This document shows positions 11,894 through 16,088 of a DNA stretch of 59,243 bases, piece after piece (position 1 is the stretch's first letter; every line of letters begins with the position of its first letter). This DNA comes from Helicobacteraceae bacterium (lineage in GTDB: Bacteria; Campylobacterota; Campylobacteria; Campylobacterales; Sulfurimonadaceae). Made by a program: the position numbers and the translations under genes. The DNA lies in assembly GCA_021163845.1 (NCBI GenBank), contig JAGGTH010000053.1:1-59243 (forward strand). Reading direction: 5' to 3'. Below the pieces are notes generated by a model. The model saw only the letters and a list, made by a program, of their open reading frames with translations. It was not told the DNA's origin and ran no database searches.

Positions 11894-11899
11894 GCATAT

Positions 11900-12847
11900 T
11901 TAAAACCAATTTTGGCGTAGCACAAAGTCGATTCTGTTTTTCGGATCTGGATCGATCTCTTTTATCTTTTCGATCTCTTTGAGTCGTGGCACAAGTCCTG
12001 TAGCATTGGCAACTTGTATCGAGAGACCTGGTCTTGCATTGAGTTCGAGGAGCATCGGTCCACGGTTTTGATCGATCACGATATCGGCTCCAAGATAGCC
12101 CAGTTTTGTCATCTCATAGCACTTGCAAGCAAGCTCTAGAAGTTCGTGCCAGTTGGCTATCTCTATCTCAGAGAGCTTGTTTTTGGTGTCTGGATGTACA
12201 AGTACTTTAGACTGCTCCATGACCGCATGGGAAGCTTGAGCATTTTGAAGATTGATACCCACGCCCACGGCACCTTGGTGCAGGTTTGCTTTGCCATCAG
12301 AGAGTTTTGTCGCAAGCCTAAGCATTGCCATCACCGGATAGCCACGAAAGATGATGATACGAATATCTGGAACACCCTCATAAGAGTAGCTCTTCAAAAG
12401 AGAATCAGCAATAATCAAATCTTCACAGATCGCTACATCCGGAGTTCCGCTCAAAGAGTAGAGTCCTGCCAAGATATTGGTAACATGGCGCATTAGAACT
12501 TCAACAGAGACTTTTTCTCCATTTGCTTTGACAAATAGCTCTTTTTCGCGTGAAGCGATCACCATGATTCCCTTGCCACCAGATCCTCTTGCGGGTTTGA
12601 GTACAAATGCATTAAGTCCTTCAAGACGCTTTTGAAGTTCCCCTACATCGTGTTGTCTTGAAAGTGTAAAAAAAAGTTTAGGGGTATTGATCCCCGCTTT
12701 TTGCGCTAAAAGTTTTGTTTTGAGCTTGTCATCTACAAGAGGATAGAGTTTTCTATCATTATATTTTGAGATATAGTTGACATTTCGTGCATTCATCCCC
12801 AAAATACCGAGTCTCTTGAGTGTCTTAAAAGAGGTGAGAAAAGGCAT
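11900..12847 (-). CDS. RimK-like ATP-grasp alpha-L-glutamate ligase-related protein
   Basis: The protein has 315 residues. ATP-grasp features are visible: the flexible loop FVLKPARGSGGKGIMV near residues 76-91 and the C-terminal metal/ATP site MLLELNARPGLSIQVAN near 268-284. The family (RimK-related ligases) joins an amino acid, usually Glu, to a peptide or protein carboxylate. The start overlaps the stop of the upstream 7TM gene by one base (TAATG), so translation is coupled. The three-gene neighbourhood matches a conserved predicted peptide-tagging cassette; substrate and tag are unknown. Confidence 0.88.
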   Translation of the reverse strand: MPFLTSFKTLKRLGILGMNARNVNYISKYNDRKLYPLVDDKLKTKLLAQKAGINTPKLFFTLSRQHDVGELQKRLEGLNAFVLKPARGSGGKGIMVIASREKELFVKANGEKVSVEVLMRHVTNILAGLYSLSGTPDVAICEDLIIADSLLKSYSYEGVPDIRIIIFRGYPVMAMLRLATKLSDGKANLHQGAVGVGINLQNAQASHAVMEQSKVLVHPDTKNKLSEIEIANWHELLELACKCYEMTKLGYLGADIVIDQNRGPMLLELNARPGLSIQVANATGLVPRLKEIEKIKEIDPDPKNRIDFVLRQNWF

Positions 12848-14355
12848 TAATTATCCTTGAATTCTCTAAAGCGATAGAGTTCAAAGAGTCTATATCCTGT
12901 ATAACGACCCATGAGCATCATCAATGCAAGTACGATAAGGTTAAGCTCTGGAAAATTAAAGCTCAGATGCCCAATAAGTGTACTTTGCATCACCAAGTAC
13001 GCGATCGTCGCGACAAACAAGCTTCCAAAACCTTGTATCAGTACCTCTTTCGCACCATCCTCTTCCCATAAAATGGACATTCTTTCTATGGTCCAAGCTA
13101 AGATAATAATAGGAAAAACAGCAACGGTCATTCCTGTATTGAAACCTAGGTTGTGCCCAACAACACTTGCTGTGACAATGATAAAAATAACGATGATAAT
13201 TGTGGTCGCTATCCTTGAGACGAGCAAGAGATTGAGGTGGGAGAGATAACTTCGTATCATGAGCCCGACAGCGACGATCATTATAAAAGTGATGAGACCT
13301 GGTAAAAGGGTGGTTTGTAAAAATGCCATCGCAATGAGAACAGGCATAAAAGTTCCGGATGTACGAATCCCTATAAGCAAGCGCATCAACACAGTGATAA
13401 GCGCACCCATTGGCAAAAGAAGAAGCATCTTAAAGATACTTTGCTCTTCGATAGGAAGAGAGTGGATACTAAAGAGTCCAAAAACAGAATCATCATAATG
13501 TGCCATTGCAAGCTCTAGAGCTGGCATATTTTGCTCTACCATAGAAAAACTCACCTTCGCATTGGACCCACCTACAAGCTCTATAAGAGAACCTCCCCTT
13601 TGCCAAAGGAAAAAATCTTTCTCAATATTTTGTTTTGCAGTCATTGCATCAAAGAGCATCCATCTATCTTGATGGTAGATCTCTATCATAGGGGTGAGGC
13701 TTTGATTGCGACGCGCATCTTCGAGGAGCAGCCCCATAGCGACACGGCTTTTTACTCCCGCTTCATTCAATATCGCATTGATTACATCCACTCTTTTTTT
13801 ATTTAGGAGAAGCAAAGAGGAACTCTCTTGCATCGATACACTTGAGAAGAGTTTGATGAGTTCACGTGTGAGTGTTTCATCGTTGCTTGAGCGAGCGAGT
13901 GCTTTTTGCAAGAGGTCTTGTTTTGCAAGCTCTTCTGCTTTTGTCCAGATGATCTCTGGATATTGCGGGAGATATTCAAGGGCTTGGGATGTAGCATCAC
14001 TTTGATCTTGTGCAATCTGTATTTTATAAAAAAGAGTTTGTTTTGAACTCGCTTCGCGAATACTCCACTGGGCTCTTTTTTGTGTCGCATCATGAACGAC
14101 ACTAAAGCCGTATCCTGCTGAGGAGCTTTGTTCAAAGAAAATTTTATATCCTGGAATTTTATCTGGGATGTTGAGGGATACTAAGATGGGGGTTTTTTTC
14201 TCAGGTTCAAATTCTACTTTTGCTTCTATAAGCCAAACAGACTTACTTTGCCCCGGGACAAAAGGGATCTGTGTATGATAATGGCGCTCGTAAGCAATAA
14301 AACATCCCAAAGCGATCAGGGCGGATACTATAAAATAAAAGGTATATTTAATCAT
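12847..14355 (-). CDS. Inactive transglutaminase-like protein fused to 7 transmembrane helices
   Basis: From ATG 14355 the protein has 502 residues: an N-terminal membrane segment (about 5-25), a periplasmic region to about 290 that includes a transglutaminase-like part (DVINAILNEAGVKSRVAMGL), and a C-terminal membrane half with about seven helices. This matches the 'UUP1' inactive transglutaminase/7TM family that travels with RimK-like ligases. I chose ATG 14355 over an upstream start at 14394 because GCAGGA sits 6 bases before it and it overlaps the upstream stop codon by 8 bases. It may sense or present a periplasmic substrate, which is inference. Confidence 0.85.
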   Translation of the reverse strand: MIKYTFYFIVSALIALGCFIAYERHYHTQIPFVPGQSKSVWLIEAKVEFEPEKKTPILVSLNIPDKIPGYKIFFEQSSSAGYGFSVVHDATQKRAQWSIREASSKQTLFYKIQIAQDQSDATSQALEYLPQYPEIIWTKAEELAKQDLLQKALARSSNDETLTRELIKLFSSVSMQESSSLLLLNKKRVDVINAILNEAGVKSRVAMGLLLEDARRNQSLTPMIEIYHQDRWMLFDAMTAKQNIEKDFFLWQRGGSLIELVGGSNAKVSFSMVEQNMPALELAMAHYDDSVFGLFSIHSLPIEEQSIFKMLLLLPMGALITVLMRLLIGIRTSGTFMPVLIAMAFLQTTLLPGLITFIMIVAVGLMIRSYLSHLNLLLVSRIATTIIIVIFIIVTASVVGHNLGFNTGMTVAVFPIIILAWTIERMSILWEEDGAKEVLIQGFGSLFVATIAYLVMQSTLIGHLSFNFPELNLIVLALMMLMGRYTGYRLFELYRFREFKDN

Positions 14356-15172
14356 TGACGTCCTGCTTTTTAAGTGGTGAGAGATCTTTGCCACTTACAT
14401 CCACAAGCGCAATATCTTTGAGGACATTTCTCCCAATGAGAATAGCAAAATCCATATGGTCTCGATTGGTCAAAGTAAATTCACTGAGGTCTGAAAAATC
14501 ACCAATATTGAGTTTAAGCTTGACAACTATTCTTCTGTCGTAGCCATCAGGGAGGGATGATTGAATAATTTTGACATAACGAGAAATTTTGGTCTCAATG
14601 GTATGTGAGGTATTGCTTTTTCTATCGAAGAGGGTAAACTTAACCCATTTTTTTCCATCTCTTTCAAACTCCTCTACATCCCTAGCATCAATAGATGAAG
14701 TGTCTGCTCCTGTATCAATGCGAGCCCGAAGTGTGATGCCTGGAGGCTGTATAAATACATTCTCTTCTTGACCCAAAATGAGCTTGCCTTGCAGTTTTGA
14801 AACCTCTTTTTTATCTTTGTAAACAATCACTTGCTTTGGTTTGCTTTTAGCAAGTTGCTGCTCTAGAAGTGCTCGTGTTGCGTTTTGCTCACTCTGAAGA
14901 TTGTGGAGTTGTTGCTCAATGGAAGAAAAAAACTCTTTTTGTTGGAGAACAAGATGTTCAAGAGACTCTTGTCGCTTCTGAGCATTTTTTGCCTGTCTCT
15001 CTTGAAGTGATTGCTCTAAAGTCTCTATTTTTGTATTTATCTTTTCAATATCAGCTTTGGAACTGTACAATTGAGAGCTGCTACATCCACTCAAAAAGAG
15101 AAAAAAAGTTGAGAATAAAATGGTGTGTAATATGCTGTGATTCAAAAAGTATGTCCTTGTTTTTTTTAGCAT
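14348..15172 (-). CDS. Retropepsin-like aspartic protease lipoprotein (RimB/'ATP-dependent zinc protease' family)
   Basis: The protein has 274 residues. A lipoprotein signal with LSGC near residue 30 leads to a coiled-coil segment (about 38-110), then a PF05618-type domain. The aspartic protease signature ARIDTGADTSSI near residues 150-161 has the DTGA catalytic loop, and FAILIGRNVLKDIALVDVSG forms the C-terminal half. Family names mention zinc and ATP for historical reasons, but the sequence is retropepsin-like. It is the first gene of the ATP-grasp cassette and may process the product of the ligase, which is inference. Confidence 0.85.
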   Translation of the reverse strand: MLKKTRTYFLNHSILHTILFSTFFLFLSGCSSSQLYSSKADIEKINTKIETLEQSLQERQAKNAQKRQESLEHLVLQQKEFFSSIEQQLHNLQSEQNATRALLEQQLAKSKPKQVIVYKDKKEVSKLQGKLILGQEENVFIQPPGITLRARIDTGADTSSIDARDVEEFERDGKKWVKFTLFDRKSNTSHTIETKISRYVKIIQSSLPDGYDRRIVVKLKLNIGDFSDLSEFTLTNRDHMDFAILIGRNVLKDIALVDVSGKDLSPLKKQDVND

Positions 15173-15228
15173 TATATTGTAAGAATCCCAACAAAGTATT
15201 AAATAAAGCTTTGAGAGAGTTGCTCTTG

Positions 15229-15234
15229 GTATAA
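15229..15234 (+). promoter_or_regulatory. Probable -10 box of panB-ruvB
   Basis: TATAAT lies 62 bases before the panB ATG, in the 124-base gap between divergent transcripts. No clear -35 box is seen. Confidence 0.4.
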
Positions 15235-15296
15235 TTACAAAAAATTTCGTTAAAATTCTCGGTACGTAAATTTATTTCAAAGAAAAGAGTTTCTCA

Positions 15297-16088
15297 ATGA
15301 CAAAGAAAATGACAGTGACATCGATACAAAAAGCAAAAGGACAAACTCCTCTTGTAATGATAACAGCGTACGATGCTCTTTTTGCAAAACTTTTAGAACC
15401 AAGTAGTGATATGCTTTTGGTTGGAGATAGCCTCAATATGAGTTTTGCGGGACGTAGTGATACTCTCAGCGCAACGATGGATCAGATGATCTATCACACA
15501 CAAGCTGTATGTCAAGGTGCACCTGAGAGCTTTGTGGTATGTGATATGCCTTTTGGCACCTATACTACCAAAGAGGAAGCTTTAAAAAATGCACTCCGTG
15601 TGTATCAAGAGAGTGAAGCGGACAGTGTGAAGATCGAGGGGGGAGCAGACAAGGCTGAGATTATTGCATATCTTACATCCAATGGTATCGCTGTCTGTGG
15701 TCATATCGGGCTTTTGCCTCAGGCTGTGCGTAGTGAAGGTGGCTATAAGGTAAAAGGGAAAAATGAGCATGAAGCACTCAAACTCATAGAAGATGCACGT
15801 GCTGTGGAAGAGGCTGGAGCTTTTTGCATGGTGATCGAGGGTGTTAAAGCAGATGTGGCGTGTGAAGTGGCAAATAGTGTCAAAATTCCCGTCATCGGGA
15901 TTGGAGCGGGCAAAAATGTCGATGGTCAAGTGCTTGTTTTTTCAGATATGTTAGGTCTTTTTGAAGCTTTTACCCCTAAGTTTGTCAAAAAATATCTTGA
16001 TGGAGCAGGAGTTGTCAAAGAGGCTGTGGCAGCGTATGCAGATGAGGTGAAAAAGAAACAATTCCCTCAAGATATCCACACCTATTAG
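15297..16088 (+). CDS. panB: 3-methyl-2-oxobutanoate hydroxymethyltransferase
   Basis: PanB transfers a hydroxymethyl group from methylene-tetrahydrofolate to 2-oxoisovalerate to make ketopantoate for pantothenate and CoA. The 263 residues show the family order: MITAYDALFAKLLE, LLVGDSLNMSFAG (metal-binding Asp), CDMPFGTY, SVKIEGG with KIEG near 110, and CGHIGLLPQ. The catalytic Glu lies in VIEGV, and IGIGAG follows. It precedes ruvB by 12 bases, the order known from Helicobacter. Confidence 0.97.
   Translation: MTKKMTVTSIQKAKGQTPLVMITAYDALFAKLLEPSSDMLLVGDSLNMSFAGRSDTLSATMDQMIYHTQAVCQGAPESFVVCDMPFGTYTTKEEALKNALRVYQESEADSVKIEGGADKAEIIAYLTSNGIAVCGHIGLLPQAVRSEGGYKVKGKNEHEALKLIEDARAVEEAGAFCMVIEGVKADVACEVANSVKIPVIGIGAGKNVDGQVLVFSDMLGLFEAFTPKFVKKYLDGAGVVKEAVAAYADEVKKKQFPQDIHTY

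Follow-up and report, generated by a model that had tools for sequence, protein, structure and literature searches.

The cassette of three overlapping genes on the minus strand of the window (the 59,243-nucleotide stretch of Helicobacteraceae contig JAGGTH010000053.1, assembly GCA_021163845.1, analyzed here) is almost certainly an rloABC operon. In Pseudomonas, this system controls hypoosmotic tolerance, cell shape, and biofilm formation (Lormand et al. 2025, PMC12239564). The kind of system is known; the additions made here are a stalked lipoprotein form of RloA and a group of sister cassettes in which RloB has an intact catalytic triad. The literature searched contained no papers on either, although earlier notice in Iyer (2009), which Lormand et al. 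and the authors of PMC12096838 both cite, is possible, and the words “lipoprotein” and “coiled” are absent from the main text of Lormand et al. (PMC12239564). A sequence-only reading of the window had presented the cassette as a predicted peptide-tagging or peptide-modification system, which was overtaken by its naming and genetic characterization in 2025 (as described in the available text of PMC12239564).

According to the same text, P. aeruginosa has three RloA peptidases that are redundantly required under hypoosmotic stress, the hypoosmotic growth defect of rloA mutants is rescued by losing rloB or rloC, and the rlo phenotypes extend to cell shape and beta-lactam (PMC12239564). In vitro, RloA cleaves chains of eight or more glutamates and also internal glutamate runs, and the portions of the paper available state that its authors found no genome-encoded substrate (PMC12239564). 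The published epistasis makes it very likely that RloA acts on the product of RloB and RloC. Disruption of an rloB homolog in Shewanella vesiculosa leads to overproduction of vesicles of uneven size (PMC12096838), in keeping with an envelope role of Rlo. In Pseudomonas, Rlo bears on survival of osmotic stress, on cell shape and biofilm, and on tolerance of beta-lactams. The window offers a simpler test bed, with one secreted retropepsin where P. aeruginosa has three that are redundant, and with a cassette whose three genes moved together.

Gene structure of the cassette

The first gene, rloA (14348–15172), encodes a 274-aa secreted retropepsin-like aspartic peptidase in lipoprotein form (PF05618, 4e-36). 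It is followed by rloB (12847–14355), encoding 502 aa with one transmembrane helix, a transglutaminase-fold domain, and a 7TM domain (PF14400, 4e-44; PF14402, 9e-103), and by rloC (11900–12847), encoding a 315-aa RimK-related ATP-grasp ligase (PF14397, 2e-91; TIGR02291). All of the Pfam matches are above the Pfam cut-offs. The adjoining ends overlap by 8 bases (rloA/rloB) and 1 base (rloB/rloC), exactly as the sequence-only reading claimed, and these overlaps suggest that the three genes may be translated jointly. The rloC start lies 1 base inside the rloB stop. For rloB we chose the ATG start that overlaps the rloA stop by 8 bases, although a GTG at 14394 would give a longer reading; the choice is supported by a 4-base overlap at the same place in all six Campylobacterota loci compared.

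The window cassette shares with RloABC of P. aeruginosa its gene order, the domains of all three proteins, the catalytic DTGA, and the polyglutamate contacts. It differs in that its RloA is a predicted lipoprotein with an ∼74-residue helix and without the cysteine pair, and in that the genome has one secreted retropepsin, not three. The NCBI Pseudomonas-level models for RloA and RloB are not passed by the window proteins; for NCBIfam RloA1, RloA2, and RloA3, the scores are 73, 77, and 104 (103.6) bits against cut-offs of 280, 250, and 210.

A predicted stalked lipoprotein retropepsin

RloA begins with a signal peptide and lipobox LSGC (15083–15172, minus strand, read from the sequence), and the predicted lipidated residue, Cys30, falls in a column that is invariant in 26 of 26 aligned RloAs. 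Lipoproteins are sorted according to whether Asp occupies position +2. Here the LSGC is followed by SS, with no Asp at +2, as expected of outer-membrane lipoproteins, and we infer that RloA is probably anchored in the outer membrane. In the AlphaFold2 model, the protein consists of a single helix spanning residues 34–107 (14852–15073, minus strand; ∼11 nm if straight), a linker modeled with low confidence, and the retropepsin domain, with pLDDT values of 91–98 across residues 41–100 of the helix. The window stalk has a modest heptad-like periodicity (3.5 residues, z 2.6), and such periodicity occurs at p ≤ 0.05 in 41 of 85 long RloAs. Two stalk helices might pair and so present a dimeric protease.

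The retropepsin domain (14384–14779, minus strand) carries the DTGA active site at D153 and matches the solved RloA structures 9g59, 9g58, and 2pma by Foldseek (E 9e-11 to 2e-9). By spacing and alignment, its R151, R198, R214, and R237 correspond to K46, R92, R114, and R137 of P. aeruginosa RloA, which contact both halves of the polyglutamate chain, with R114 and R137 reported as essential (available text of PMC12239564). All four symmetric contacts are kept, K46 being replaced by Arg.

There is no cysteine in the window RloA domain. A cysteine pair is termed conserved in periplasmic RloA enzymes (PMC12239564, in the text available), and its absence here places the window protein in a subclass other than the short, disulfide-stapled Pseudomonas type. 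Of 137 retropepsins collected, 4 had no readable motif and 133 were classed (one of which, from locus L160, is a RimB). A lipobox with at least 60 residues before the active site was found in 90 of the 133, and two or more domain cysteines in 23. Only one protein (L179) has both, and its lipobox call sits in an apparently 5′-extended reading; two others (L199, L210) belong to the long class by eye but were missed by the filter. Thus, RloAs of the long class tend to have lost the cysteine pair. Judged from these sequences, the predicted stalked lipoprotein is the form of RloA in most of the loci examined. The RloAs of Succinivibrionaceae and Endozoicomonas (L067, L068, L076–L079, L082, L086, L087) are longer, at 387–457 aa, and carry much sequence beyond the active site.

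RloB and RloC

The periplasmic transglutaminase-fold domain of RloB (model residues 37–278; 13522–14247, minus strand) matches structure 3isr (Z 13.6, rmsd 4.2, 218 residues aligned), with the Cys and His of the catalytic triad missing. The 7TM domain (12859–13590, minus strand) is defined by its profile match to PF14402, and many residues of the transmembrane part are conserved. The AlphaFold2 model of RloB has a mean pLDDT of 81; in structure comparison of the 7TM fold, the best VIA-align rows were NqrD and an AcrB half, with Z ∼7, within the tool's stated background.

RloC passes NCBI TIGR02291 with 408 bits (cut-off 314) and keeps the motifs NLHQG and ELNARPG, the E-N-P-G type common to RimK. 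It lacks the ∼65 N-terminal residues of RimK, is 24% identical to it, and fails the RimK cut-offs (NF007764, 22.5 vs. 331 bits; TIGR00768, 53 vs. 143 bits). A true RimK is encoded separately in the genome; it adjoins RimB and passes the RimK model with 366 bits, so the ribosomal job is already taken. The sequence-only reading had named a ligase that modifies only a ribosomal protein as evidence against itself, and on this check the ligase appears not to be just a ribosomal modifier. Its specificity for glutamate would follow from kinship with RimK.

RimB–RimK is a close parallel, in that it also combines a retropepsin with an ATP-grasp glutamate ligase, and the window genome has both types; unlike Rlo, RimBK works in the cytoplasm on ribosomal S6 and lacks a 7TM partner. 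As far as the source available goes, RimK tags S6 and RimB removes the tag, between them the two enzymes synthesize and cleave poly-alpha-L-glutamate up to 28–36 units long, and in P. fluorescens RimB stimulates RimK to produce this polymer (PMC11957791). Across the window's genome there is no run of seven Glu codons, so an acidic substrate of RloA is likely to be made after translation. On balance, we somewhat favor a glutamate chain as the product of RloB and RloC.

Conservation and linkage

The statement that the same gene combination recurs in other bacteria was borne out. We compared 88 loci, a set that leans to close relatives: besides the window, it comprises 80 loci from named genomes and 7 that came from a phylum search. 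The order A-B-C is found in 87 of them, the exception being L090, whose contig starts before A, and such regularity indicates that the arrangement is not chance. A more even sample of 349 Pseudomonadota genomes contained 58 with the 7TM gene, from which 57 loci were taken. The ligase adjoins the 7TM gene in all 145 loci (88/88 and 57/57); cassettes without a ligase, also named beforehand as counterevidence, numbered 0 of 145. RloA is adjacent in 49 of the 57 sampled loci. The 7TM protein and ligase therefore appear to form a core that can occur without the protease. Among 298 Campylobacterota genomes, RloB is found in 8, and RloC above cut-off in exactly those 8.

A conserved fourth partner, which the sequence-only reading proposed to search for, was not found among genes up to four positions on either side, clustered across the 88 loci. 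The commonest upstream neighbors, cmoB (29 loci) and cmoA (21), which are tRNA-related, were taken as inherited gene order, and the remaining clusters are confined to one or a few related genera. In L096 and L097, a second, RimB-sized retropepsin gene lies ∼4.8 kb from rloB, in L097 beside a weak ATP-grasp match.

Acquisition of the cassette

The cassette (approximately 11897–15245, the right end set by eye) lies between an Hpt-domain gene (PF01627; 11461–11862, minus strand) and a gene on the plus strand (15297–16088) that we take, from its sequence, to be panB. The relatives compared within the genus were the 24 best matches of a search across 41 genomes, one of them the window's own; in 23 of the 24, trpA-Hpt-panB-ruvB is contiguous, with an Hpt-panB gap of 55 to ∼240 bases. 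In the window, this gap is filled by the 3.3-kb cassette, the left edge of which is the rloC stop codon. The 24th relative (L138) is represented by a short contig with a Rieske-like ORF (by eye) beside Hpt in place of panB, from a genome with 8% contamination. Another member of the genus (L091) has rloABC elsewhere, with ∼60% RloB identity. In a 65-row RloB tree, five Campylobacterota rows, the window's among them, form a clade nested within Pseudomonadota rows, and at least two changes are required for the phylum. Gain by lateral transfer is the simplest reading. Composition gave no signal of foreign origin (G+C 40.8% for the cassette, 39.5% for the window).

Cassettes without an adjacent RloA

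RloA is not adjacent in 8 of the 57 sampled Pseudomonadota loci. In five of these (L162–L166), the RloB and RloC genes overlap, and the next gene encodes a TPR protein that carries a helix at its N-terminus. Four of the five contigs extend beyond this gene and encode a signal-peptide protein there; in three of the four (all but L166), it ends in an aromatic motif of the kind found at the C-terminus of outer-membrane barrels. The barrel-like assignment rests on signal peptides, C-termini, and a clear strand pattern in three of six proteins, the Pfam matches being below cut-off. A PepSY-like gene is present in at least four of the five loci.

Two of the RloBs of L162–L166 were scanned, and both match the transglutaminase core of the active type (E 1.6e-16, 8e-18). 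The Cys-His-Asp triad is intact in 5 of 5, compared with 0 of 140 other RloBs. A PF05618 protein is absent from four of the five genomes, and the only one in the fifth is beside a RimK. It should be noted that the active-triad RloBs belong to a single clade, found in 5 of the 78 genomes of one class, and so probably reflect one evolutionary event. These cassettes share with that of the window the RloB and RloC homologs and the overlapping genes; they differ from it in having no retropepsin, an intact triad, and the extra TPR and barrel-like genes. The presence of the triad where RloA is absent suggests that RloA and the intact RloB domain may serve the same function and act on a common product. 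If so, the swap predicts a shared product, and the place to look for it is between the membranes. The iron-stalk sfz cluster of Zetaproteobacteria was considered as an explanation of the TPR/barrel cassettes and set aside, since its genes, as described in the available text, differ (PMC8250860).

Of the remaining loci, L160 and L161 have a short 7TM protein that lacks the transglutaminase-fold domain; its gene is flanked by an upstream barrel-like gene on one side and an ATP-grasp gene on the other. Their genomes have no linked RloA, and the only retropepsin adjoins a RimK; in L160, this RimB–RimK pair is just upstream of the 7TM locus. L189 has neither an adjacent RloA nor the triad, and its genome has an unlinked secreted retropepsin.

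A possible pathway and its alternatives

The placement given in the sequence-only reading, with the ligase in the cytoplasm, the protease and 7TM protein in the envelope, and a product that may cross the membrane, seems right to us. Whether a glutamate chain is made by RloC, brought to the periplasm by RloB, and trimmed by an envelope peptidase is a question on which we are evenly divided. In such a pathway, RloC would join L-glutamates in the cytoplasm into an acidic chain, either unattached or carried by a small acceptor; the 7TM part of RloB would carry or present the chain to the periplasm, where the dead transglutaminase-fold domain would hold it; and RloA would cut it, which, given the epistasis in Pseudomonas, would prevent build-up and envelope damage. 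The predicted helical arm, if RloA is held in the outer membrane, would have the length to extend towards the inner membrane. In the sister cassettes, where RloA is absent, the Cys-His-Asp domain of RloB would itself do the trimming. For the step in which RloB moves a glutamate product across the membrane, our support is tentative, falling slightly short of even.

RloC could instead polyglutamylate one membrane or envelope protein, with RloA reversing the tag and no free chain exported; the target may be RloB itself, the C-terminus of which is expected to face the cytoplasm. The tagging of S6 by RimK and its reversal by RimB (PMC11957791, text available) offer a precedent, RloA also cleaves internal Glu runs (PMC12239564, likewise), and the ligase and 7TM gene are never apart. 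Yet the RloB C-termini beyond the conserved ELxRF stretch vary, with no Glu-Glu end in 16 compared, no linked partner moved along with the three genes, and, with RloA periplasmic and RloC cytoplasmic, passage of the tagged part through the membrane would still be required. We consider this explanation unlikely. It is improbable that the cassette attaches amino acids, later trimmed by RloA or the RloB domain, to a peptidoglycan precursor or stem peptide, with a wall defect as the phenotype: RloA needs at least eight contiguous glutamates in vitro, unlike wall peptides (available text of PMC12239564), and RimK-type kinship dominates in RloC (408 bits for TIGR02291; the best bacterial D-Ala ligase model scores 28 bits). 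That weak match to D-Ala-D-Ala ligase models, together with the shape and beta-lactam phenotypes of P. aeruginosa (PMC12239564, same text), is what speaks for a wall substrate. A dead enzyme domain on a 7TM anchor with many conserved transmembrane residues would also suit a periplasmic sensor that binds a ligand and switches RloC, RloA removing the ligand; the full triad of the sister cassettes would be needless for a pure sensor, and we regard this as very improbable.

Returning to the chain-export pathway, a broader version of it, somewhat unlikely in our view, is that RloB and RloC are an invariant poly-amino-acid synthase/exporter core, a third polyglutamate route beside PgsBCA and RimBK, with exchangeable periplasmic processing and exit parts. 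These parts, if the proposal is true, would be a stalked or free retropepsin, or the Cys-His-Asp peptidase of RloB with TPR and outer-membrane barrel conduit. PgsBCA/CapBCA resembles Rlo by analogy only, as a ligase, a polytopic membrane protein, and a hydrolase for a glutamate polymer, with a similar SGxxxPxLIA-type motif; the Rlo ligase is an ATP-grasp enzyme, whereas that of PgsBCA/CapBCA is Mur-ligase-like. RloB has no hmmscan match to PF14102 (CapC). In hhalign comparisons with tandem-CapC proteins (three, later six) and nine decoy membrane families, the CapC match to the 7TM domain falls in a plausible register (E 0.03–0.14), yet not above the decoys (0.017–0.6), one of the nine families scoring better. 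CapC neighborhoods and the TPR/barrel cassettes have no protein in common by blastp. The tandem-CapC proteins (L234–L239) are ∼1,050–1,080 aa in length with two CapC domains, and downstream, where the contig allows, are genes of ∼800–830 and 270–320 aa, then a large secreted-looking protein.
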